From assembly GCA_013299045.1 (NCBI GenBank), contig JAAFJX010000002.1, positions 62,001-126,000 of the forward strand: a stretch of 64,000 bases of DNA. Reading direction: 5' to 3'. The stretch comes from Cytophagales bacterium (GTDB taxonomy: Bacteria > Bacteroidota > Bacteroidia > Cytophagales > Bernardetiaceae). Made by a program: the position numbers and the translations under genes. The notes beneath the pieces were generated by a model. It ran no database searches, was not told where the DNA came from, and saw only the letters and a list, made by a program, of their open reading frames with translations. Shown here one piece after another: positions 1 through 63,502 of this stretch (positions are counted from its first letter, which is position 1; the number at the start of each line of letters is the position of its first letter).

Positions 1-3000
1 GCAACAACGATATGATATTATTAATAGTACTGGTTTTGTTGTGAATTGGTTTCAAAGAGAGATTTAGCTATATTTGCAACAACTATTCAGTGGGTGGCGG
101 ATTATCTGAAGGGTTGTGAATTGGTTTCAAAGAGAGATTTAGCTATATTTGCAACAACATAAGTTCTTGTTCTTTGAATTTGATAAAGTTGTGAATTGGT
201 TTCAAAGAGAGATTTAGCTATATTTGCAACAACGTAAATAGGTTTCAAGGCCGCTTTTTGCAGGTTGTGAATTGGTTTCAAAGAGAGATTTAGCTATATT
301 TGCAACAACTTAAAAAAAATGAACAAAAACGCAACAAAAGTTGTGAATTGGTTTCAAAGAGAGATTTAGCTATATTTGCAACAACAACACTGCCTGAAAA
401 AAATTGGCTTAAATTGTTGTGAATTGGTTTCAAAGAGAGATTTAGCTATATTTGCAACAACGACAAATCTCTGAACCTATACGAAGTGTTGTTGTGAATT
501 GGTTTCAAAGAGAGATTTAGCTATATTTGCAACAACTATCTCCTTGTATTTTGGCGGCAAAGGCGCGTTGTGAATTGGTTTCAAAGAGAGATTTAGCTAT
601 ATTTGCAACAACTTTGAAGCAGCACCAAGAACTAAAGTATTGTTGTGAATTGGTTTCAAAGAGAGATTTAGCTATATTTGCAACAACCGAAGGGTATTCA
701 GATGCTTATTACGCGCAGTTGTGAATTGGTTTCAAAGAGAGATTTAGCTATATTTGCAACAACTCTACTTATTGAATTAAATGCACTTTCTGAGTTGTGA
801 ATTGGTTTCAAAGAGAGATTTAGCTATATTTGCAACAACTTTGAGGCAGCTTATGAATTGCGCAAAGCAGTTGTGAATTGGTTTCAAAGAGAGATTTAGC
901 TATATTTGCAACAACAATGTTTGGCCACTTACAAGGGGGGTTGTTGTTGTGAATTGGTTTCAAAGAGAGATTTAGCTATATTTGCAACAACTTCACTTGC
1001 AGCATCTACAGGTTTTCAAAGTTGTGAATTGGTTTCAAAGAGAGATTTAGCTATATTTGCAACAACTAGCAGATAACTTATTTGTATCAAACCTAGTTGT
1101 GAATTGGTTTCAAAGAGAGATTTAGCTATATTTGCAACAACGTAGAGATGTATCCGTCTGTTTCTGTATGGTTGTGAATTGGTTTCAAAGAGAGATTTAG
1201 CTATATTTGCAACAACATTGCGAGTTGCCAAAATGGCGTTTAATGCGTTGTGAATTGGTTTCAAAGAGAGATTTAGCTATATTTGCAACAACAACAGCAA
1301 GGCCTAGCCCACTGCACGAAAGGTTGTGAATTGGTTTCAAAGAGAGATTTAGCTATATTTGCAACAACAACGAAGCTATGACTCGTAATGGTAGCAAAGT
1401 TGTGAATTGGTTTCAAAGAGAGATTTAGCTATATTTGCAACAACCGCAGGTAAGCTGCCTAAACAATATGGCGGGTTGTGAATTGGTTTCAAAGAGAGAT
1501 TTAGCTATATTTGCAACAACAAAAGCTATGAAAGAGCGGCTGCGGCTGCGGTTGTGAATTGGTTTCAAAGAGAGATTTAGCTATATTTGCAACAACAATA
1601 ATGCAATGCAAGTTCTTTATTGTCAAGTTGTGAATTGGTTTCAAAGAGAGATTTAGCTATATTTGCAACAACTTTTTCTTTGCAAACAGCCTCAAGTTCA
1701 TCGTTGTGAATTGGTTTCAAAGAGAGATTTAGCTATATTTGCAACAACTTTAGCTATGACTGGAATGAATTAGCCGAGTTGTGAATTGGTTTCAAAGAGA
1801 GATTTAGCTATATTTGCAACAACTGGAAAACGAGAGCTTGGGCACTAAAGAGGTTGTGAATTGGTTTCAAAGAGAGATTTAGCTATATTTGCAACAACTT
1901 AGGCTGGTGGCATCAGATTATGTGCCAAGTTGTGAATTGGTTTCAAAGAGAGATTTAGCTATATTTGCAACAACTTTTGGCATCATTTGCGGAATAGTTC
2001 GCGAGTTGTGAATTGGTTTCAAAGAGAGATTTAGCTATATTTGCAACAACATTGGCCTCAAATAAAGTAAGTAATTCGTGTTGTGAATTGGTTTCAAAGA
2101 GAGATTTAGCTATATTTGCAACAACAATATTGGGGGCAATTATTTAGAGTATCTGTTGTGAATTGGTTTCAAAGAGAGATTTAGCTATATTTGCAACAAC
2201 ATCAACGAAAGAGATGTGATATGCTTAAACGTTGTGAATTGGTTTCAAAGAGAGATTTAGCTATATTTGCAACAACACTTAAAAAGGATATTTTGGCGCA
2301 TTATATGTTGTGAATTGGTTTCAAAGAGAGATTTAGCTATATTTGCAACAACTCTTGCATAAAAACAAGTAAGGTTTTGTCGTTGTGAATTGGTTTCAAA
2401 GAGAGATTTAGCTATATTTGCAACAACCAATCTGAAAAATTAACATTGGAACTTCTGTTGTGAATTGGTTTCAAAGAGAGATTTAGCTATATTTGCAACA
2501 ACTGCAAATTATTGTAATTAGGGTTCACGCTGTTGTGAATTGGTTTCAAAGAGAGATTTAGCTATATTTGCAACAACCATTGACTGCAAATATTCCGCAG
2601 ATTTTCGTTGTGAATTGGTTTCAAAGAGAGATTTAGCTATATTTGCAACAACAATAAACAGCATATTCGCGGTCTTTTTTTGTTGTGAATTGGTTTCAAA
2701 GAGAGATTTAGCTATATTTGCAACAACTGCTAGCATAGTGAATGCAAGTAGCAATTTGTTGTGAATTGGTTTCAAAGAGAGATTTAGCTATATTTGCAAC
2801 AACTGTGCCATCTAAATATAGCTCTACGGTGCTGTTGTGAATTGGTTTCAAAGAGAGATTTAGCTATATTTGCAACAACGGCGCTTTGGTTCGCCAGAAT
2901 TTCACACCGTTGTGAATTGGTTTCAAAGAGAGATTTAGCTATATTTGCAACAACCGCACCCCTCTGGCACACCTAGTCTAATAAGTTGTGAATTGGTTTC

Positions 3001-3634
3001 AAAGAGAGATTTAGCTATATTTGCAACAACATCAAAAAAATTTTGAAAATATTTAAGAAGTTGTGAATTGGTTTCAAAGAGAGATTTAGCTATATTTGCA
3101 ACAACTACATTCCGTATTCAAAAATGTTTTCGATGTTGTGAATTGGTTTCAAAGAGAGATTTAGCTATATTTGCAACAACCGATTTATCGTAATCGGTAA
3201 GTTCTGCATAGTTGTGAATTGGTTTCAAAGAGAGATTTAGCTATATTTGCAACAACGAAGATTAGGAAATAAACAAGCAATAGCAGTTGTGAATTGGTTT
3301 CAAAGAGAGATTTAGCTATATTTGCAACAACTATGTTATTGGTTCACCTTACATTGTTTAAGTTGTGAATTGGTTTCAAAGAGAGATTTAGCTATATTTG
3401 CAACAACTTAGGTTGGTGGCATCAGATTATGTACCAAGTTGTGAATTGGTTTCAAAGAGAGATTTAGCTATATTTGCAACAACCTTTGAAGGCAATAGAC
3501 CAAGTACAGTATGTTGTGAATTGGTTTCAAAGAGAGATTTAGCTATATTTGCAACAACTGCGCGCCCCTTTTTGAATGCTTGTGCCCAGTTGTGAATTGG
3601 TTTCAAAGAGAGATTTAGCTATATTTGCAACAAC
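1..3634 (+). CRISPR. Type II-C CRISPR array, 48 full repeats, truncated at window start
   Basis: A 46-bp repeat starting GTTGTGAATTGG and ending TTTGCAACAAC recurs every 75-76 bp with unique spacers of 29-30 bp. I count 48 complete copies (first 38-83, last 3589-3634) plus the last 8 bp of one more at position 1, so the array continues to the left. The repeats I read show no variation, even the last one, so no degenerate terminal repeat marks the cas-proximal end. Three signs put the crRNA on the plus strand: the repeat begins with G and its 5' half is the part complementary to the tracrRNA anti-repeat; each repeat has a plus-strand promoter; and a terminator follows the last repeat. Short reading frames that run through the repeats are artefacts. 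Two spacers, at 1899 and 3408, are near-identical. Confidence 0.99.
46..76 (+). promoter_or_regulatory. Repeat-embedded promoter (first full repeat shown as example)
   Basis: Inside the repeat, TTG lies at repeat positions 9-11 and TATATTTG at positions 32-39, 20 nt apart. This is an exact fit to the Bacteroidota sigma-A promoter (TTG, 19-21 nt, TAnnTTTG), the same layout seen before tRNA-Leu and rpsT in this window. Start of transcription is expected 4-8 nt downstream, at the repeat-spacer junction. Since the repeats are identical, the same promoter is present 48 times, one per spacer. This resembles the repeat-encoded promoters known for Neisseria type II-C arrays, but with the Bacteroidota promoter code. 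Confidence 0.75.
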
Positions 3635-3693
3635 AGACCCTGCGTAAGTTGTTGGTTATTAAAAGAATATGGCTAAAAGAAGTTCAAAAAAAT

Positions 3694-3736
3694 GGCTTAT
3701 AACAACGGGCTTCCGTCTATTATAAGCTGTTTTTTT
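3694..3736 (+). terminator. Rho-independent terminator after the last CRISPR repeat
   Basis: GGCTTATAA pairs with TTATAAGC (3720-3727), with an inner ACGG/CCGT stem, and is followed by TGTTTTTTT. The U-tract lies on the plus strand only, so it stops transcripts that leave the array toward cas2. It would also keep array transcripts from running antisense into the cas genes. Confidence 0.75.
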
Positions 3737-3939
3737 GTTTCTATACAGGCTACCGAACCCCAAAAAATGCTTTTCTCTTTGGCTACAAAAGCATCATTCT
3801 TGAGCTATAGAACATCGATAAAATTAATTTTACAGATTTTCATAGATTTGTTATCTCCGTTCCCCAAAGGCGTAGCCATGTTTAGCCAAACCCCCTCGCT
3901 ATGATGCCAAGCCCCTAGGCTGCCCTCTCGGCCAAAGGC
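3737..3939. other. Spacer DNA between array terminator and cas2
   Basis: No convincing gene, repeat or promoter is visible here. Together with the terminator it makes up the roughly 300 bp between the array and the cas2 stop codon. Confidence 0.5.
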
Positions 3940-4290
3940 TTAAAAAAGCATCAATTGCTCAGACTCGTCCTGCTCGGGGCCGCGATGAGGCTTGCGCCCG
4001 TAAAAGCGCTCCATAAGCCCAAACTGACGGTCTGTAACCATCAAAATCTCTACCTTACCATCTGGCGGCAGGTTGTCCTTCACGTAGTTGATGTGCACTT
4101 CGGCGTTCTCTTTGCTCATTTGGTGGCGGATATACACCGAAAATTGCAGCAACTTAAAGCCATTTTTTAGCAGCTTTTTGCGGAAGTCGGCGGCGGCCTT
4201 GCGCTCGCGCTTGGTGTAGGTGGGCAGGTCAAACATCACAAAAATCCACATAATTCGGTAGCGGTTAAAGCGGTCGTCGGGTTTACTCAT
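3940..4290 (-). CDS. cas2: CRISPR-associated endoribonuclease Cas2
   Basis: Partner of Cas1 in the spacer integration complex. The protein has the small Cas2 ferredoxin-like pattern: hydrophobic first strand WIFVMFDLPT with the conserved Asp, then a basic helix (residues about 20-40), FSVYIRHQ, and a strand with VEILMVTDRQF, followed by an acidic C-tail. I choose the ATG at 4290 because it gives ATGAGTAA, an 8-nt overlap with the cas1 stop and thus translational coupling; an upstream ATG at 4305 would add five residues. It is the last gene of the cas9-cas1-cas2 order typical of type II-C; there is no csn2 or cas4. Confidence 0.95.
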   Translation of the reverse strand: MSKPDDRFNRYRIMWIFVMFDLPTYTKRERKAAADFRKKLLKNGFKLLQFSVYIRHQMSKENAEVHINYVKDNLPPDGKVEILMVTDRQFGLMERFYGRKPHRGPEQDESEQLMLF

Positions 4291-5257
4291 CGTCAAAGTC
4301 ATCAAATTCTTCGGGGTAGGTCTGGGCGCTTTTGCTGTCTAGCTTGCGGCGCTTGGTGGCATAGAGCTGGGGGTAGAGCAGCGTCCTGCTTTCGCCCGCA
4401 AAGCAGCGGTAGAGCGAAGCAGTGGTTTGTTGCAGCCCCACCATGAGCGGACTGCGGCGGCCTCTGATGTTAATTTCTTCGGTGGCTATGCTCAGCAGCT
4501 TGGCTTTTTGGCTTTTGTTGAGGTCTTCGTTCAGGCCTTGGCTTTCTATGAGTTCAAACACGAGCTTGTCCACAAAGGGACGAAAGGGCTCTATTACGTC
4601 GTCGGCCAGGCAGTAAGCGTTGTACTGGTTGCGGTGGAAAATACCGAGCGTGGGCAGCAAGCCGCTCGCCACCAAGCCCCGCGCCACAATGGCGCGCAGA
4701 ATGGCGTAGCCATAGTTCAGCAGGTTATTGGGGGCCGCACCGTCTGGGTCGCGCCTGAACTGCCCCAAACCCAAAGGTTCAAAGAGGCGCTTCCAATAAT
4801 AAGCCGCTCCTGCTCCCTCCAGATTGCTCTTGTCGCCCGACACAACAGCCCTGCTCCAGGCCCAAAGCTGGTCGGCTTCTATGCCGCGCTTCTCTAGGTG
4901 CAGGGCTTGGTTCTGGAGCTTGGCCTGTACGGTCTGCGCCCAGAGTTGCTTTTTGAGCGGCTCTTTGGCCTGAATCTGCTCGCGGAAGCGCACCGACTGC
5001 AGCGTATGGCCGCAGAGGTTCAGCATAAGGCCGGTGGGGTGGTGCTTGGCATCGCAGGTAACGAAGGCCACGTTATGCTCCATGAGGCTCTGCATGAGGC
5101 CGTGCGTAAACGTAATCTGGGGGTGTTCCAGCATGAGTACGCCTATGTCCATGATAGGCATTTGTTTTTCTGTGCCGTCTTCGAGGCGCACCAGCAGTTG
5201 CTCGTCGCGTTTAGAGAGGTAGGCAGGAGAGCCAAAATGCAAGGTGCGTTTAATCAT
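4283..5257 (-). CDS. cas1: CRISPR-associated endonuclease Cas1
   Basis: Integrase of the adaptation complex, 324 aa. It starts MIKRTLHFGSPAYLS, the opening typical of type II Cas1 proteins, with the beta-rich N-terminal domain over about residues 1-80. The helical catalytic domain carries the metal-binding Glu in SNLEGAGAAYYW (near residue 149) and the His and Asp in LGIFHRNQYNAYCLADD and the following DVIEPFRP segment (about residues 205-225). The tail is acidic. It overlaps cas2 by 8 nt and follows cas9 after a gap of 150 bp that holds a hairpin. Confidence 0.97.
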   Translation of the reverse strand: MIKRTLHFGSPAYLSKRDEQLLVRLEDGTEKQMPIMDIGVLMLEHPQITFTHGLMQSLMEHNVAFVTCDAKHHPTGLMLNLCGHTLQSVRFREQIQAKEPLKKQLWAQTVQAKLQNQALHLEKRGIEADQLWAWSRAVVSGDKSNLEGAGAAYYWKRLFEPLGLGQFRRDPDGAAPNNLLNYGYAILRAIVARGLVASGLLPTLGIFHRNQYNAYCLADDVIEPFRPFVDKLVFELIESQGLNEDLNKSQKAKLLSIATEEINIRGRRSPLMVGLQQTTASLYRCFAGESRTLLYPQLYATKRRKLDSKSAQTYPEEFDDFDDE

Positions 5258-10185: not shown

Positions 10186-10215
10186 TTGTTTATTCCAAAA
10201 TATTAACTACTTTTG
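10186..10215 (+). promoter_or_regulatory. tracrRNA promoter
   Basis: TTG at 10186-10188 and TACTTTTG at 10208-10215 are 19 nt apart, matching the Bacteroidota promoter pattern. Expected start is around 10220, just before the anti-repeat. It lies directly upstream of cas9 and reads away from it. Confidence 0.75.
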
Positions 10216-10219
10216 CATC

Positions 10220-10313
10220 AAATCTCTTTTGAAATCAATTCACACTAAGGATTATTCCGTTTAGTGTTTTCTCTCTGGAGCGTATCTCATTCGGGCTACG
10301 CTTCATTGTTTTT
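10220..10313 (+). ncRNA. tracrRNA for the type II-C system
   Basis: The anti-repeat AAATCTCTTTTGAAATCAAT plus TCACAC (10220-10245) pairs with the 5' half of the CRISPR repeat, with G-U pairs and one internal bulge. It is followed by a hairpin CACTAAGGA-TTAT-TCC-TTTAGTG (10241-10266) and then AGCGTA...TACGCT (10280-10305) closing on ATTGTTTTTT, a terminator. This is the usual tracrRNA plan: anti-repeat, nexus-like stem, terminal stem, U-tract. Length is about 90-95 nt. The bulge should be where the Cas9-bound duplex is distorted before RNase III processing. Not exactly complementary to the array, so it evolves separately from the repeat. Confidence 0.85.
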
Positions 10314-10432
10314 TAAGGTTTGACCACAACGACACTTTTTGCTTCGCTTCAAATTTAAAAACTTTTTTTAAATAAAGCCAATACTAATCTCAGTATTCTA
10401 AGCCGTATTTTAGAGCCACAACAATGGTAACC

Positions 10433-10708
10433 GTTGCACAACTACGACAAAAATTCAAAAACCAAGAATTTTAAAAAATTTCGAGGGCTTAATATTGCGC
10501 TATTGAGGGCATTAAATTGTTGTTTTGCTGAAAAAACAAATATAACAGGGTCAATAGATTCCTGACCTTCTGTTCCGTAATAATGAGCAGTTTCTCTATA
10601 AATAAACTGTAAATCAAGTACTTGTGCTAATTTGCGATAAAAATTATCTTTGGCATTTTTTTGCAGAATGAAATTAGTTTTGTATTTTTGAAAAGCAAGT
10701 TGTGCAAC
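10433..10708 (-). mobile_element. Miniature element B, copy 1 (IS1182-derived, non-autonomous)
   Basis: 276 bp bounded by GTTGCACAACT and its inverse AGTTGTGCAAC. Reading from the right end on the minus strand, it encodes about 60 residues that look like the start of an IS1182/DUF772 transposase (NFYRKLAQVLDLQFIYRE, then YYGTEGQESIDPV). The frame then runs straight into 3'-end sequence, so the catalytic core is deleted. It must be moved in trans. Four other copies lie at 14261, 16247, 41013 (truncated) and 44612. Every complete copy is preceded by GTAACC and each is followed by AAGC. Confidence 0.8.
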
Positions 10709-10802
10709 AAGCACATAGGCTTGGCGAAAGCGGGGCAAAAGTGCTAAATTTAGGCTTTTGTGCTAAGATTTCCCCGACTTCGCCAAGCCTTTTCCGTTAG
10801 GT
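10702..10802 (+). other. attC-like recombination site 1
   Basis: Structure in order: GTGCAAC (last 7 bp of element B), then arm AGGCTTGGCGAA-AG-CGGGG (10717-10735), a 35-bp centre that is itself partly palindromic, arm CCCCGACTTCGCCAAGCCT (10772-10790), and GTTAGGT (10796-10802). GTTAGGT fits the integron core GTTRRRY. Long imperfect arms with unpaired bases and outer AAC...GTT triplets are the hallmark of attC. No integron integrase gene lies in the window, so this could be an integrase-less cassette array. The left core matches RYYYAAC at six of seven positions. Confidence 0.55.
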
Positions 10803-10997
10803 GCAACCCTAAAAGACGACACAACCGACATCAAATGAACAATAAAACGACAGACAAAATGTCAACGCTTCGCAAAATAAAAAGAGCTGCAACCCAACAC
10901 ACAAACCAACGCTTGCACCACATTTTATTTTGCCCTACCGCACCCCAAGCCTACCAATTACCCGACTTTGGGTAAAATGACAATTTGACGGGCATTA

Positions 10998-14221: not shown

Positions 14222-14260
14222 GCAGCTACACTATTTCACCAACACTCAACAAAAGTAACC

Positions 14261-14536
14261 GTTGCACAACTACGACAAAAATTCAAAAACCAAGAATTTC
14301 AAAAAAATTTCGAGGGCTTAATATTGCGCTCTTGAGGGCATTAGATTGTTGTTTTGCTGAAAAAACAAATACAACAGGGTCAATAGATTCTTGACCTTCT
14401 GTTCCGTATAATGAGCAGTTTCTCTATAAATAAACTGTAAATCAAGTACTTGTGCTAATTTGCGATAAAAATTATCTTTGGCATTTTTTTGCAGAATGAA
14501 ATTAGTTTTGTATTTTTGAAAAGCAAGTTGTGCAAC
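14261..14536 (-). mobile_element. Miniature element B, copy 2
   Basis: 276 bp with the same GTTGCACAACT/AGTTGTGCAAC ends as copy 1. One base is missing relative to the others near 14407 (CCGTATAATG instead of CCGTAATAATG), which shifts the frame of the transposase remnant and confirms that the encoded peptide is not under selection. It sits 39 bp after the RhuM stop codon. ACTCAAC at 14244-14250, a match to RYYYAAC, lies just left of it. Confidence 0.8.
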
Positions 14537-14668
14537 AAGCACATAGGCTTGGCGAAAGCGGCTGGCTAATCTGCATAATTTAGGCGTTTGTGCTTTCTAT
14601 AAACTTTGTGCGTAGGGCAAGGGAAGTGCTATTAAATTCCGCCCTTCGCAAACATTTTTCCGTTATGG
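14530..14668 (+). other. attC-like recombination site 2 (possibly hybrid)
   Basis: The left arm GGCTTGGCGAAAGCGGC matches that of sites 1 and 3, but the right arm CCGCCCTTCGCAAACATT is different and pairs less well with it. The site ends with GTTATGG (14662-14668). It looks like the left half of one site joined to the right half of another, which recombination or cassette loss could produce. The site separates the methyltransferase-RhuM cassette from the serine hydrolase cassette. Confidence 0.45.
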
Positions 14669-16218: not shown

Positions 16219-16246
16219 AACAGGGCTGCACATAACATAGGTAACC

Positions 16247-16523
16247 GTTGCACAACTACGACAAAAATTCAAAAACCAAGAATTTCAAAAAAATTTCGAG
16301 GGCTTAATATTGCGCTCTTGAGGGCATTAAATTGTTGTTTTGCTGAAAAAACAAATACAACAGGGTCAATAGATTCCTGACCTTCTGTTCCGTAATAATG
16401 AGCAGTTTCTCTATAAATAAACTGTAAATCAAGTACTTGTGCTAATTTGCGATAAAAATTATCTTTGGCATTTTTTTGCAGAATGAAATTAGTTTTGTAT
16501 TTTTGAAAAGCAAGTTGTGCAAC
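16247..16523 (-). mobile_element. Miniature element B, copy 3
   Basis: 277 bp, same ends as copies 1 and 2. It is preceded by ACATAAC (16230-16236), which is complementary to the GTTATG that opens this same cassette at 14662, as expected for the two ends of one attC. Codes the same truncated transposase N-terminus on the minus strand. Confidence 0.8.
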
Positions 16524-16653
16524 AAGCCCATAGGCTTGGCGAAAGCGGGGCAAAAGTGCTTTATTGAACTTTGGAATATAAATGGGCTAAATTAATTTAT
16601 TTAGGCTTTTGTGCTAAGATTTCCCCGACTTCGCCAAGCCTTTTCCGTTAGGT
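16517..16653 (+). other. attC-like recombination site 3
   Basis: Arms identical to site 1 (AGGCTTGGCGAAAGCGGGG near 16532 and CCCCGACTTCGCCAAGCCT near 16623), with a longer centre that contains about 30 extra bp. Ends with GTTAGGT (16647-16653), a GTTRRRY match. It marks the start of the cassette that holds the glycosyltransferase-radical SAM operon. Confidence 0.55.
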
Positions 16654-16791
16654 GCAATGGCAGCACGACAAAATAGGACTTTAAATTTAGTATCTTTAAC
16701 AAATGGTTATTCTAACGTCCATTCAAAACGAAAGGTGCGGAAGCCGAAAAGCAAATTAAGAGTAGGCGTAACTTCTAAACTGTTATGATTT

Positions 16792-29627: not shown

Positions 29628-29658
29628 TTGCCAGATAAAAAAAAGTCATTTACCTTTG
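29628..29658 (+). promoter_or_regulatory. tRNA-Leu promoter
   Basis: TTG (29628-29630) and TACCTTTG (29651-29658), 20 nt apart. The mature tRNA begins 14 nt later. As promoter of a certain gene it serves as an internal standard for the consensus used here. Confidence 0.85.
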
Positions 29659-41012: not shown

Positions 41013-41250
41013 TGTAAAAATTTCGAGGGCTTAATATTGCGCTCTTGAGGGCATTAAATTATTGTTTTGCTGAAAAAACAAATACAACAGGGTCAATAGA
41101 TTCCTGACCTTCTGTTCCGTAACAATGAGCAGTTTCTCTATAAATAAACTGTAAATCAAGTACTTGTGATAATTTGCGATAAAAATTATCTTTGGCATTT
41201 TTTTGCAGAATGAAATTAGTTTTGTATTTTTGAAAAGCAAGTTGTGCAAC
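41013..41250 (-). mobile_element. Miniature element B, copy 4 (left end missing)
   Basis: Identical in layout to copies 1-3 from AAAATTTCGAGGGCTTAATA to the right terminus AGTTGTGCAAC, but the first 40 or so bp with the left terminal repeat are lost at the junction with element A. It lies immediately left of the Hachiman cassette. Confidence 0.8.
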
Positions 41251-41381
41251 AAGCACAGGGGGTTTGCAAAAGTGGCGGTTCAGTTCTCCGCAGACACATT
41301 TGTGGTTAATCAAACATTGGTTCTCCGCATCAACATTTGTGGTGAAAATTGCCACCTTCGCAAAGCTCAAAAACGTTAGGC
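41244..41381 (+). other. attC-like recombination site 4
   Basis: Different sequence but the same plan as sites 1-3: GTGCAAC, left arm GGTTTGCAAAAGTGGCGGTT, a centre with the repeated motif GTTCTCCGCA...ACATTTGTGG, right arm AATTGCCACCTTCGCAAAGCTC, and GTTAGGC (41375-41381), an exact GTTRRRY. Its complement, CCTAAC, recurs at the far end of this cassette at 44596-44601. Confidence 0.55.
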
Positions 41382-42324: not shown

Positions 42325-44600
42325 GACAAATCAACAAATTCAATTCAAAAGAAATATCTGATGATATTCTTATTAAATCTGTATGCGATTATTTCAACGA
42401 AATAAAAAATGATTCACTAAATCAATCTGATTTAAAATTTCTAAAATACATTTCTAATATTGCAGGAATACCTCATTATTTTGACATTTTAAATAGCCAA
42501 TTCAATCAAGAAATAGAAATTGAAGAATACAATTTAAACACTTTTTCCTCATTGCTTTATGAAAGCACTTTACACACAAATGAGAATTTAAAAGTCCATA
42601 AATATCAAATGAAAATTATGGATTTGTTTCAAATAGGGAAATTGAACAGATATTTTTTATCGGCAAGCACTTCGTTTGGTAAAACACATATCGTTTTTGA
42701 AATCATTAAGAAAATGAACTATGAAAACGTAGTTTTAATTTTTCCAACAATTGCGTTACTTTCTGAAAATCTAGAAAAATTAATATCCGATGACAACTAT
42801 AAGTATTTTAGAGAGAAATACAAAATTCATACTTTAAGCGAAGTCAGTGAATTTGAAGAAACCAATTTATTTATTTACACACCTGAACGATTTTTATCTT
42901 TCAAAGAAAAAAATCCAACTAGTATAACATTTAATTTCGCTTTTGTTGATGAGATTTATAAAATCGACAACGAATATTTGATTGATGAGGAAGTAAAAGA
43001 AAATGAAAGAGATCTTGCATATCGCTTATCTGTTTTTTATGCTTTAGAAAATAATGTTGATGTTCTATTAGCTGGTCCATATATAGATTTTTATGATTCT
43101 CAAAAAACAGGATACAATGGTTCATTTGACAAATTTCTTACTCAAAACGAAATTGAATTAATAAATTATAATCAGTATGAAATAGTAAGCAAATCATATG
43201 AAGACATTAAGTCTAAAAAGCATATTGAAGTTGATAAATTTCTAGAATTTGATTTTATTACCAATAAGAAGACAGATAGACTTATTGAGATAGTCAAAAA
43301 AATCAATGAAATCAATGAAAATACTATTGTTTATTGTTCAACAAGAAATTACTCGGAGACTTATGCTACAACACTTTTAGAATCAGATGTTTTCAATAAT
43401 CATTCTGATGATGATTATTCAGACTTTATAAAACATATATCTAAAAATTTTAGCATAGATTGGACAATAATAAAAGCATTACAAAAGGGAATTGGTGTTC
43501 ACCATGGTTTAATACCAAAATATATTCAAAAAGAGATTATATCATTATTTAATACAGGTCAATTAAAAGTTCTTTTATCAACAACTACAATTACAGAAGG
43601 CGTTAATACTTCTGCAAAAAACTTAATTGTACTTCATAGTAAAAAAGGAGATAAAGAACTTAAGAAATTTGATGCCAAAAATATTGCTGGAAGAGCAGGA
43701 CGGTTTTTATATCATTATTCAGGAAGAGTTATCGTTCTACAAAATGACTTTATGAAAGCAATTGAATCTGAACCAGAAGGAATAAAACACAAAAATTATG
43801 ATTTACAAGCACCAAAAGACGAAATAGATTTATTTTATTCAAAGGACGAGTTTCTTTCACAAGCCGACAAAAATAGAAAAACAGATATAAAAGCTGAACA
43901 AGAAAAAAGAGGAATTCCAGATGAAATATTCAACTTGTACAAAGTTGTAAGTAGACTTGATAAAATAACAATTTATGATGAAATCAAAAAATTATCGGCT
44001 TCTGAAATAGAATCAATAAATTCACTAATTAGGAAAATTCAATACAAAATGGATATTGACAATGATGGATTTCAAACCATTCTGAAAGTCATTTTTCCAA
44101 TTGTAAAAAGTGAAAAACTTAAATTCTTAATAACCGAAACAGATAAGAATGGACAATTTTCAATACTTACTCATTTACTACACTTTTATTTAGTGGGTGG
44201 GTTTATGAGTTCGGTAACTTTCAAAATTGCTCAAGGAAAAACAATTGACAAATCCATTTCTGAAACTGCCGAGTTTGTTTATAACACTTTAAAATATCAA
44301 GTTGTAAAGTATCTTGGAGTTTTTAATATCATGTTTCGTTTCATTCAATCCCAAAAGAATAATAAAACATTCGAAGATGTAACAGGAATTGACAGACTTT
44401 TAGTCAAACTTGAATATAATGCTTTGACAGATAAAGGAAGAATTGCAAGTGACTATGGAGTACCTTCAAGTGTTTTAGAATATTACGAGAATGTTGAAAA
44501 ATCAAAAGACATAAAAGCTAATTTTGACAATTACGAAATGAAAATATTTGACAGAATAGAAACAATTATTAACGGAACAGATAAAAGCACAAACACCTAA
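42291..44600 (+). CDS. hamB: Hachiman helicase HamB (SF2)
   Basis: 769 aa. Walker A is SASTSFGKTHIVFEII (about residues 123-138), motif II FAFVDEIYKI (about 218, DEIY in place of DEAD/H), and motif VI NIAGRAGRFLYHY (about 464), in the Ski2-like style; IGVHHGLIPKYIQKEI and LLSTTTITEGVN are the motif IV-V region. The C-terminal third is helical. As sensor of the two-gene defence system it translocates on DNA and releases HamA. The stop codon lies within ACCTAAC, the RYYYAAC-like end of the cassette, so nothing separates the gene from the recombination site. Confidence 0.88.
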   Translation: MDRIEETTNVLRQINKFNSKEISDDILIKSVCDYFNEIKNDSLNQSDLKFLKYISNIAGIPHYFDILNSQFNQEIEIEEYNLNTFSSLLYESTLHTNENLKVHKYQMKIMDLFQIGKLNRYFLSASTSFGKTHIVFEIIKKMNYENVVLIFPTIALLSENLEKLISDDNYKYFREKYKIHTLSEVSEFEETNLFIYTPERFLSFKEKNPTSITFNFAFVDEIYKIDNEYLIDEEVKENERDLAYRLSVFYALENNVDVLLAGPYIDFYDSQKTGYNGSFDKFLTQNEIELINYNQYEIVSKSYEDIKSKKHIEVDKFLEFDFITNKKTDRLIEIVKKINEINENTIVYCSTRNYSETYATTLLESDVFNNHSDDDYSDFIKHISKNFSIDWTIIKALQKGIGVHHGLIPKYIQKEIISLFNTGQLKVLLSTTTITEGVNTSAKNLIVLHSKKGDKELKKFDAKNIAGRAGRFLYHYSGRVIVLQNDFMKAIESEPEGIKHKNYDLQAPKDEIDLFYSKDEFLSQADKNRKTDIKAEQEKRGIPDEIFNLYKVVSRLDKITIYDEIKKLSASEIESINSLIRKIQYKMDIDNDGFQTILKVIFPIVKSEKLKFLITETDKNGQFSILTHLLHFYLVGGFMSSVTFKIAQGKTIDKSISETAEFVYNTLKYQVVKYLGVFNIMFRFIQSQKNNKTFEDVTGIDRLLVKLEYNALTDKGRIASDYGVPSSVLEYYENVEKSKDIKANFDNYEMKIFDRIETIINGTDKSTNT

Positions 44601-44611
44601 CATCGGTAACC

Positions 44612-44887
44612 GTTGCACAACTACGACAAAAATTCAAAAACCAAGAATTTCAAAAAATTTCGAGGGCTTAATATTGCGCTCTTGAGGGCATTAAATTATT
44701 GTTTTGCTGAAAAAACAAATACAACAGGGTCAATAGATTCCTGACCTTCTGTTCCGTAATAATGAGCAGTTTCTCTATAAATAAACTGTAAATCAAGTAC
44801 TTGTGCTAATTTGCGATAAAAATTATCTTTGGCATTTTTTTGCAGAATGAAATTAGTTTTGTGTTTTTGAAAAGCAAGTTGTGCAAC
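44612..44887 (-). mobile_element. Miniature element B, copy 5
   Basis: 276 bp with intact GTTGCACAACT/AGTTGTGCAAC ends, preceded by ACCTAACATCGGTAACC. Right of it, AAGCACAGGGGCTT begins like the other sites, but no arm or GTTRRRY follows. This may therefore be the end of the cassette array. Confidence 0.8.
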
Positions 44888-44977
44888 AAGCACAGGGGCT
44901 TACAAACGGGATTTAAGTCAAATTTATTACTTTATACTCTTTCCCGAAAACTAGAGGCTGTTTCGTGTTTTAGGTTA

Positions 44978-60334: not shown

Positions 60335-60367
60335 TAGCTAAATCTCTCTTTGAAACCAATTCACAAC
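60335..60367 (-). repeat. Lone CRISPR repeat fragment, 33 of 46 bp, identical to the array repeat
   Basis: On the minus strand it reads GTTGTGAATTGGTTTCAAAG and continues to AGCTA, identical to repeat positions 1-33 of the array at 1-3634. It stops at the TA of the repeat's promoter box, where element A copy 7 is joined. No second repeat or spacer-like spacing is seen nearby. On the plus strand the fragment is a perfect anti-repeat. Confidence 0.9.
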
Positions 60368-60460
60368 CAGCAGCAAAGCCCAATGCTCTACTTTTATGGG
60401 AATGATTTTTGCGGTTCTTGTTGCCAAATACTTATAAGCCACCTCAATAGTTCCCAAAAG

Positions 60461-63400
60461 ATGAAGAAGTACAATCTTCTACTAATCTTGCTTTGGTCAG
60501 TACACTTGGCATTGGCTCAAAACTGGCAGGAATTGGATAAAAAGGCAACATCTTTTTATACGATAAACCTAGATTCTGCTATATTTTACGCTCAAAAAAG
60601 CGTAAACGTATGTTACACGGCGCTTAGCGCTCAAGATACTGCTTGCGCACTTTGTGTGGGGCATTTGGCTCAGGCTTATGAGCGAAAGCAAAAATTTATG
60701 GTTGCCGATAGTCTTTATAACCTTGCTATTGGCTGTTTTGATAAAAGTAATACAAAATCTGTTACGCTGGCCGAACTGATGAATGCTTCTGCCACCATCA
60801 AACAGCACCAGAATAACTTTAGCGGGGCAGAAAGGCTATTTTTTAAAACGAGAAGGCTTTTTGCTGAACTTATAGGAAAAGAAAACCACTTCTATTCTAG
60901 TGGTTGTAATAACTTGGGCTATCTCTACCGCGAAGCTGGCCGCTACCAAGAATCCGAAGCCTTACTGCAAGAAGCCAGAGGCATACGTGAGCGTACAGTG
61001 GGCAAGGAGGACCCCGCCTACGCAATAGTTTGCAACAATCTAGGCTTGCTTTATCAAAGCATGGGGCGCTATGAAGAATCCGAAGCCTATGCCAAAGAAG
61101 CCCTTTACATTCGCGAAAAGAAGTATGGCGAAAATAGTTTGCTTTGCGCCACCTCTTACAACAACTTAGGGCTTCTGCACAAGGAGAGAGGGCAGCACGT
61201 TTTAGCAGAGCAGTTTTTACTAAAATCCAAGGAGATACGCGCACGACTGTTGGGTACGCAGCATCATATTTATGCAGCAGCCTGCAACAATTTGGCAGCG
61301 CTTTATCAAGAACAAGGCAGAAATGCTCAAGCGCTTAACTTTCAGAAAGAAGCCTTAGAAATCAACAGAAAGAATAATGATAAAAAAAGTGCACTTTACA
61401 CCAAATCCCTTCTCAATCTTGCTACTTTAGTTACAGACGTTAGTACAGATACAGATTATGCAGAAGCGGAACAGTTGATTGACGAAGCCGCCACCATTCG
61501 TGCAGAGCAATATGGGCGAGAGAGTGCAGCCTACGCTTCGGTACTTGTGGCAAATGCACGGCTGAGTCATGTTAAAAAAGATATAGCCAGAAGTGAACTT
61601 TTGTACCAAGAGGCTATTGAGATAATGAAAAAGACTAGTGGCGAAAAAAATTACCAAAGTATAAGCGCCATGACTCTTCTTTTGAGTTTATATATTTATG
61701 CAGAAAACTATGAAAAAGCCTCTTTGTTAGGCAATAATACGCTTGATTTACTTGAAGACATAGGCAGCAAGGAAAGCATGGATTGGTTTAACATCATGAG
61801 CTGCATGGCCATAGCCTACGAGGGTTTACTAGACTATAAAAAGGCCATCAAAGCGCACAGTGAGGCGATGCGTGTTTTTTGGTATCAAATAGAAAATAAC
61901 TTTGATTTTTTGTCCGAAAAAGAAAAAAGTAAGTTTGCCGCACAGCTGCGCAATAAGGCTGAAATGGCTTATTCCATGCTCCTGAGGCACGCAGACCCTG
62001 AACTAAGCAGCCTTCTCCTGAACAACTTACTCATTACCAAATCCATGTTTTTCAATACCTCACAAAACATGAAGAGGCATATACAAAACACCAAAGACAA
62101 CAAGCTACTCCAGCTTTATAACGACTGGTCTTTGGTACGCAAGCAACTTGCTAACGCCACACAAATGAGCAATGAGTATTTAAAAGCACAAAATATTAGT
62201 TTTGACTCCCTTACAGAAACTGCAAATGCTTTAGAAAAGGAGCTCTCGCTCAAAACCTCCTTACAAATTGATAAAAAGAGAGTAGTGTGGCAGGACGTGC
62301 AGCGCCAACTCAAAAAAAATGAAGCAGCGGTAGAAGTTATCAGAATTTGGTATCACAACAAATCTTATAAGGATTCTGTCATGTATTTGGCCTTTATTAC
62401 TACACCAGAAACAAGCAGCTCCCCACTTTTTGTCCTGCTCCCAAACGGCAATTATCTTGAAAAAGAAGGTCTTAGCTTCTATCAAAATAGCATTCAGTAC
62501 AGTCATTTGGATACCTTTTCTTACAACTCTTTTTGGAAGCCCATACAAGAAAGAATAGGAGCAGCCAAAACCGTTTATTTTTCTGGCGACGGAGTCTTTC
62601 ATCAAATCAATCTGGCCACTCTTTATAACCCCCAACGCAAGCGTTATTTACACCAGAGCATCAAGATACAGCTTTTGAGCAGCACACGCGACCTTATGTT
62701 GATACAAAACACTAAAAAACAAACAAAAAACTACAAGGATTATCAGATTCATCTCTTTGGCTATCCGAACTACGCACTCAAACAAGCCGCTATGCTATCC
62801 GAACCTGAACTCAAAGGCGTACTGGAAGAACAACAAGAACAAAACATCAAGAAGCTGCGCTTTTTTAATTTAAGCATAGGCCAAGTTAAAGAACTGCCCG
62901 CCACTAAAGTAGAAGTGGAACAAATTGTAAGTATGGCGCAAAGGCAAAATATAAAAACCCACATCTATTTGGGCAACAAGGCTACCGAAAGCTCACTCAA
63001 GGGTTTACAAAGCCCCAGCATTCTGCACATAGCCACGCATGGCTTTTTTATCAAAGAAGAAGATAACAACAGCAACCTGAGTATGGACAACGCCCTTACT
63101 CGCTCAGGGCTATTACTTGCAGGCGCGGAAGAGGGCATTACTTTGGCTGATAAGGGCGAAGAAAACGGCATACTTACCGCACAAGAAGCCTTTGGTCTGA
63201 ACTTGAATGATACGGACTTGGTCGTTTTATCGGCCTGTGAAACAGGGCTGGGTGATATACAAAACGGTGAGGGTGTAAATGGTTTACAACGCGCTTTTAT
63301 GCAAGCTGGCGCAAAATCAATCTTGATGAGCCTCTGGAAGGTGGACGACGATGCTACCCAAAAGTTAATGACTTTGTTCTATCAAAATTTACTAGAAAAA

Positions 63401-63502
63401 AAGCAAAGTAAAAGATTGGCTTTTGAAAACGCCCAAAGCAAGTTGCGTAAAACCTACCCAGAGCCTTACTATTGGGGTGCTTTTGTGTTATTGGGGGAAT
63501 AA
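60461..63502 (+). CDS. TPR-CHAT protein (caspase-like peptidase)
   Basis: 1013 aa from ATG 60461 (MKKYNLLLILLWSVHLALAQ, signal peptide); an earlier TTG inside the CRISPR repeat fragment is not the start. About ten TPR units span residues 30-430 (e.g. NNLGYLYREAGRYQESEALL, NNLGLLYQSMGRYEESEAYA). A helical linker follows, and a CHAT domain fills the last 320 residues with catalytic His in LHIATHGFF (about 859) and Cys in LVVLSACETGLGD (about 925), then GLQRAFMQAGAKSILMSLW. The signal peptide puts the peptidase outside the cytoplasm. A second gene of the same type follows. Confidence 0.88.
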   Translation: MKKYNLLLILLWSVHLALAQNWQELDKKATSFYTINLDSAIFYAQKSVNVCYTALSAQDTACALCVGHLAQAYERKQKFMVADSLYNLAIGCFDKSNTKSVTLAELMNASATIKQHQNNFSGAERLFFKTRRLFAELIGKENHFYSSGCNNLGYLYREAGRYQESEALLQEARGIRERTVGKEDPAYAIVCNNLGLLYQSMGRYEESEAYAKEALYIREKKYGENSLLCATSYNNLGLLHKERGQHVLAEQFLLKSKEIRARLLGTQHHIYAAACNNLAALYQEQGRNAQALNFQKEALEINRKNNDKKSALYTKSLLNLATLVTDVSTDTDYAEAEQLIDEAATIRAEQYGRESAAYASVLVANARLSHVKKDIARSELLYQEAIEIMKKTSGEKNYQSISAMTLLLSLYIYAENYEKASLLGNNTLDLLEDIGSKESMDWFNIMSCMAIAYEGLLDYKKAIKAHSEAMRVFWYQIENNFDFLSEKEKSKFAAQLRNKAEMAYSMLLRHADPELSSLLLNNLLITKSMFFNTSQNMKRHIQNTKDNKLLQLYNDWSLVRKQLANATQMSNEYLKAQNISFDSLTETANALEKELSLKTSLQIDKKRVVWQDVQRQLKKNEAAVEVIRIWYHNKSYKDSVMYLAFITTPETSSSPLFVLLPNGNYLEKEGLSFYQNSIQYSHLDTFSYNSFWKPIQERIGAAKTVYFSGDGVFHQINLATLYNPQRKRYLHQSIKIQLLSSTRDLMLIQNTKKQTKNYKDYQIHLFGYPNYALKQAAMLSEPELKGVLEEQQEQNIKKLRFFNLSIGQVKELPATKVEVEQIVSMAQRQNIKTHIYLGNKATESSLKGLQSPSILHIATHGFFIKEEDNNSNLSMDNALTRSGLLLAGAEEGITLADKGEENGILTAQEAFGLNLNDTDLVVLSACETGLGDIQNGEGVNGLQRAFMQAGAKSILMSLWKVDDDATQKLMTLFYQNLLEKKQSKRLAFENAQSKLRKTYPEPYYWGAFVLLGE

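Follow-up and report, generated by a model that had tools for sequence, protein, structure and literature searches.

How are the spacers of a CRISPR array expressed when the array reads towards its own leader? We address this question at a type II-C locus in a 64,000-nucleotide stretch of DNA from a Cytophagales bacterium (hereafter the window), in which every repeat resembles a promoter directed into the adjacent spacer.

The locus and the motif in its repeat

The locus has the composition that defines type II-C, with cas9, cas1, cas2 and a tracrRNA but neither csn2 nor cas4 (Table 1), and the interval between cas9 and the array holds no gene beyond the three cas genes. The window edge cuts through the array, whose full extent is 70 repeats (G000:C9:60373-65634); within the window the 46-nt repeat, GTTGTGAATTGGTTTCAAAGAGAGATTTAGCTATATTTGCAACAAC, is present in 48 identical copies separated by spacers of 29-30 nt. 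At its upstream end the array has a decayed repeat; this marks the older end, with the leader on the opposite side, beside cas2, so that the array reads towards its leader, as II-C arrays with repeat-borne promoters do. New spacers are inserted beside cas2 in Riemerella anatipestifer (PMC6008519), whose CRISPR1 resembles the array of the window in being of type II-C with long repeats (47 nt in RA-CH-2; PMC5006608). Spacers 25 (1899-1928) and 45 (3408-3437) share 93% identity and look like samples of two variants of a single target. The crRNA orientation is confirmed by the anti-repeat of the tracrRNA, which pairs with repeat positions 3-28; the tracrRNA itself folds far better than shuffled sequences, and a copy of the promoter motif ends 4 nt upstream of it. 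A solitary copy of repeat positions 1-33, exact but reverse-complemented, lies at 60335-60368 (+), some 50 kb away from the array, where a TPR-CHAT gene region begins (ORF 60350-63502); no tracrRNA-like fold was found downstream of this copy.

Table 1. Features of the CRISPR locus, in window coordinates.
Feature	Position	Strand	Basis or remark
Type II-C array, 48 full repeats and 47 spacers	38..3634	+	continues leftwards beyond the window
-33 TTG of the first full repeat (repeat positions 9-11; recurs in every repeat)	46..48	+	sequence
-7 box TATATTTG of the first full repeat (repeat positions 32-39; recurs in every repeat)	69..76	+	sequence
Predicted transcription start in the first full repeat (repeat position 44, A)	81	+	inferred from box geometry (PMC9723704)
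Interval from array to cas2 on the leader side; expected site of new spacers	3635..3939	.	analogy with Riemerella (PMC6008519); decayed repeat at the opposite end
cas2	3940..4305	-	PF09827
cas1	4283..5257	-	PF01867
cas9, 1589 aa	5408..10177	-	RuvC_III, HNH_4
tracrRNA promoter, TTG-N19-TACTTTTG	10186..10215	+	motif match
tracrRNA, predicted to start at 10220; anti-repeat 10220-10246 followed by hairpins	10220..10316 (about)	+	fold z-score -4.3

Promoters of the primary sigma factor of Bacteroidota are characterised by a -7 TAnnTTTG and a -33 TTTG (PMC7366714, PMC9723704). We found TTG-N19-21-TAnnTTTG in 48 of 48 window repeats on the + strand, in the crRNA orientation, and in none on the - strand. 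As the sequence-only reading had described, TTG occupies positions 9-11 of every repeat and TATATTTG, an exact match to the box, positions 32-39, at a spacing of N20. The repeat therefore shares both elements and their spacing with the Bacteroidota primary sigma promoter, but holds them inside a CRISPR repeat, and one promoter sequence per repeat in the crRNA orientation is what marks II-C arrays with repeat promoters. The full motif arose in 86 of 20,000 dinucleotide shuffles of the repeat (0.43%). The window beyond the array has 25 matches, 22 of them on the + strand, for an expected total of 5.7 +/- 2.2, and this excess argues that the motif marks promoters in this DNA; the promoters of tRNA-Leu (29628-29658) and of the tracrRNA, cited in the earlier reading as instances of the same motif, are true matches. 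Nine of these 25 matches sit in copies of one dispersed repeat, a family of about 250-430 bp with 90-98% identity (10417-10806, 14237-14594, 16229-16657, 41016-41276 and 44588-44901), most copies of which contain two promoter-like matches to TTG-N-TAnnTTTG.

We consider it likely, from these features and from those of related repeats described below, that every repeat carries a promoter for the host primary sigma factor, of which the -7 box is the essential part, and that spacers are expressed singly without a leader promoter. Under this proposal the sigma factor would recognise one promoter per repeat, the TAnnTTTG box being placed just 3' of the half that pairs with the tracrRNA. RNA polymerase would start in the final nucleotides of the repeat and continue through the neighbouring spacer and the repeat that follows. 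If the box lies at -12 to -5, the geometry mapped in F. psychrophilum (PMC9723704), the predicted transcript of the window repeat starts at position 44 and consists of AAC followed by the spacer. The tracrRNA, whose own promoter is written in the same code, would pair with that following repeat, where RNase III probably cuts. Such expression of single spacers would fit an array whose leader lies downstream, and each stored phage sequence would probably be switchable on its own.

The -7 box in related repeats and at the tracrRNA

Cas9 was searched for in about 790 genomes (phylum and class), in 291 genomes of the order and in one named collection. About 215 Cas9 loci were taken, and their arrays were located and oriented by the conserved 5' end of the repeat that pairs with the tracrRNA; each distinct repeat was counted a single time, and separate searches may share species. 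The main set comprises 100 distinct repeats of the class, at least 42 nt long, of type II-C and adjoining a Cas9. A comparison of related II-C repeats with their shuffles, which the sequence-only reading had put forward as a check, found the box to be common, the strict TAnnTTTG being present downstream of the pairing part in 47 of the 100 against 2.3 in shuffles (maximum 9). The relaxed form TAnnTT[TAC][GA] was found in 79 (8.8 shuffled), and in 94 (14.6 shuffled) when G was permitted first, while the opposite strand of the same repeats gave 0, 1 and 9 for the strict, relaxed and G-first forms. TAnnTTTG is also the most frequent gapped 8-mer in the repeat tails of this survey. The repeats share descent and the survey counts therefore overstate independence; after clustering of the first set of 52 repeats, the strict box was present in 15 of 41 at 85% (against 1.3) and in 5 of 19 at 70% (against 0.6). 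The box was absent from the type I repeats of the class, about 14 in number, and about one fifth of the long repeats and most 36-nt repeats of the survey lack even the relaxed form. Many of the 36-nt II-C repeats (for example at loci L074, L165, L169 and L195) have GATATT, TACATT or TAGATT at positions 31-36, and their ends could be a truncated TAnnTT box with its last bases in the spacer.

The tracrRNA loci make both the promoter code and the end of the duplex known independently of the repeats. In the class, TAnnTTTG stands at a distance fitting a start at the anti-repeat in 44 of 72 tracrRNA loci, against a null of 1.5, and TTG precedes the box at N18-22 in 25 of 42 distinct cases, with a peak at N19-20. 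The tracrRNA genes of the same loci thus share the box, and the TTG/TAnnTTTG code is the one in use there. The duplex spans about repeat positions 1-23 in the class, and the box begins at or after its end, just as TATATTTG lies outside the crRNA:tracrRNA duplex of the window. Pairing with the tracrRNA does not, therefore, explain the conservation of the box, and we reject it as the cause. The last base of the box (G or A) showed no significant covariation between repeat and tracrRNA (p=0.22). What the sequences show directly is the box itself, the strand on which it lies, how well it is conserved and where it stands with respect to the duplex. We regard the -7 box as a well supported feature of the repeats of this class, and the sequences likewise support a Bacteroidota-type box that is widespread among the II-C repeats of the class, confined to the crRNA strand and outside the tracrRNA duplex.

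The -33 TTG, by comparison, is not independent evidence, because it is located in the tracrRNA-pairing half; both TTGs of the repeat lie in the conserved 5' half that this pairing requires. In decayed upstream terminal repeats the -33 TTG is retained in 5 of 27, against 4.0 expected, which is chance level. Mismatches in terminal repeats reach 32% at positions 1-16, 5.6% at 17-31 and 2.5% at 32-46, with the box intact in 30 of 32. We rejected this decay as proof of promoter selection: boxless repeats show the same pattern, so that recombination renewing the inner side explains the intact 3' half too.

The loss of the -33 TTG from terminal repeats would also suit a single promoter upstream of the first repeat, followed by RNase III cutting as in other type II systems, with the boxes in the repeats weak or idle. 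We judge this unlikely, as the box is conserved beyond the duplex, occurs once per repeat and is strand-specific, and as the within-array reads of Flavobacterium columnare, only eight in number, run towards the leader (PMC8092290).

Registers of the box and the class of the host

In the full set of distinct repeats from the class, 44 have the strict box starting at positions 23-27 and 4 have it at 31-32. Culturable carriers include Thermophagus xiamenensis DSM 19012, with the box at 23, Chryseobacterium taichungense DSM 17453, with the box at 26, and Pedobacter steynii DSM 19110, with a variant box at 32. The usual register (23-27) fits the first TTG, at positions 2-4, at N18-22, and the second fits TTG 9-11 at N19-20; the window repeat belongs to the latter. 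We therefore rejected the register of the window as the norm of the class, which is 23-27. The window-type register (31-34) is rarer and recurs in several separate branches of the Cas9 tree. The proposal that transcription starts at the repeat-spacer boundary would consequently hold for this register but not for most relatives, in which a box at 23-27 puts the predicted start about 11-12 nt inside the repeat. A second-register box was found in 0 of 74 long repeats with a relaxed first-register box and in 9 of 36 without one (20 of 36 if G is permitted first), an exclusion (0/74 against 9/36) with p=2e-5 in which shared descent is left in. In a same-genus relative whose Cas9 is 51% identical, repeat positions 20-29 are changed and positions 31-46, including TATATTTG, are identical. 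Between nearest Cas9 neighbours the six box positions are kept in 84% and the later tail positions in 61%.

The box also varies with the host. A first-register box is present in 73 of 100 class repeats and in 1 of the 10 long repeats that come from the phylum's other classes (p=1.5e-4, uncorrected for descent). The Cas9s of the class and of the other classes are intermixed in the tree, and in other-class repeats of the same Cas9 clades the site is mostly TTTCTTTG or GTTCTTTG. One class genome has a second Cas9 (locus L198, G469:C28:1-6381) with a 37-nt Neisseria-like repeat that ends in GGCTACAATC, the other promoter code; this locus may represent transfer or contamination.

These patterns bear on two further explanations. 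The box could serve the Cas1-Cas2 integrase as a DNA motif that anchors spacer insertion from inside the repeat, its resemblance to a promoter being secondary. Other CRISPR types have internal anchors of this sort, and the 3' side of the repeat adjoins the leader, the site of insertion. We nonetheless find an anchor improbable, given that the box lies anywhere from 5 to 17 nt from the end of the repeat, that its register shifts between related Cas9s, and that it matches in form the tracrRNA promoters of these loci and follows the class of the host. Inheritance from one ancestral repeat, by descent and not selection, would account for most boxes being TATCTTTG at 23-24, but is very improbable, with flanking tail positions diverging more than the box, a shift of the box to 31-32 in separate branches of the Cas9 tree, and a different site in its place in other-class repeats of the same Cas9 clades.

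A stronger proposition, to which we give about even chances, is that class II-C repeats must encode exactly one host-sigma promoter, whose box slides between two registers in step with the evolution of repeat and tracrRNA; the local promoter code would then shape the repeat sequence and could limit the transfer of arrays between phyla.

Relation to known systems and implications

Repeat-borne promoters are established in Campylobacter jejuni (PMC3656092). As proposed here, each repeat has a promoter, the start lies near the repeat-spacer border, and tracrRNA and RNase III make the 3' end. The C. jejuni promoter is an extended -10, GGTAAAAT, at the extreme 3' end of the repeat, with a start at spacer position 5 mapped by dRNA-seq, whereas the promoter predicted here has TAnnTTTG, inside a repeat of 46-47 nt. 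II-C repeats of N. meningitidis also bear promoters, according to papers that cite that work (PMC7038990, PMC5006608); as far as these accounts go, the leaderless expression of single crRNAs is like that predicted here, and the promoter code is a sigma-70-type extended -10, unlike that of the window repeat. An extended -10 of the Neisseria/Campylobacter kind (TAnAAT-type, at the repeat 3' end) is absent from the window repeat, which ends in GCAACAAC. Convergence with the Neisseria repeat promoters is possible; recoding of an old site is an alternative, because the second register and the ends of the 36-nt repeats coincide with the Neisseria and Campylobacter -10 sites.

Closer to the window, a TTG in the II-C repeats of F. 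columnare and F. psychrophilum was proposed as a -33 element (PMC8092290, PMC10309648), and these arrays share with that of the window a Bacteroidota host and a candidate -33 TTG; the available text of neither account mentions a -7 box within the repeat. Unlike the window repeat, the Flavobacterium-like repeats of 36 nt in our survey are without TAnnTTTG. In R. anatipestifer CCUG25054 (locus L229) we found TATCTTTG at position 25 with a TTG at N20. The paper on that species, which applied the BDGP neural network, not built for this phylum, to leaders, reports no repeat promoter (PMC5006608). B. thetaiotaomicron has no CRISPR array (PMC7366714). In the literature searched we found no mapped crRNA starts in Bacteroidota, nor any paper that describes a -7 box in the repeats of this phylum, how widely it occurs or its two registers. 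Repeat-borne promoters elsewhere and the Flavobacterium -33 TTG were thus known already; what is new is the putative full promoter of the host code in the repeat, its spread and its sliding position.

A box borne by the repeat may explain the roughly 10 nt of extra length in the repeats of the class, the expression of arrays that read towards their leader, and why repeat promoters went unnoticed in Bacteroidota. It also predicts where crRNAs begin in bacteria associated with the gut, the mouth and fish, and would tie the evolution of CRISPR repeats to the transcription code of the host.
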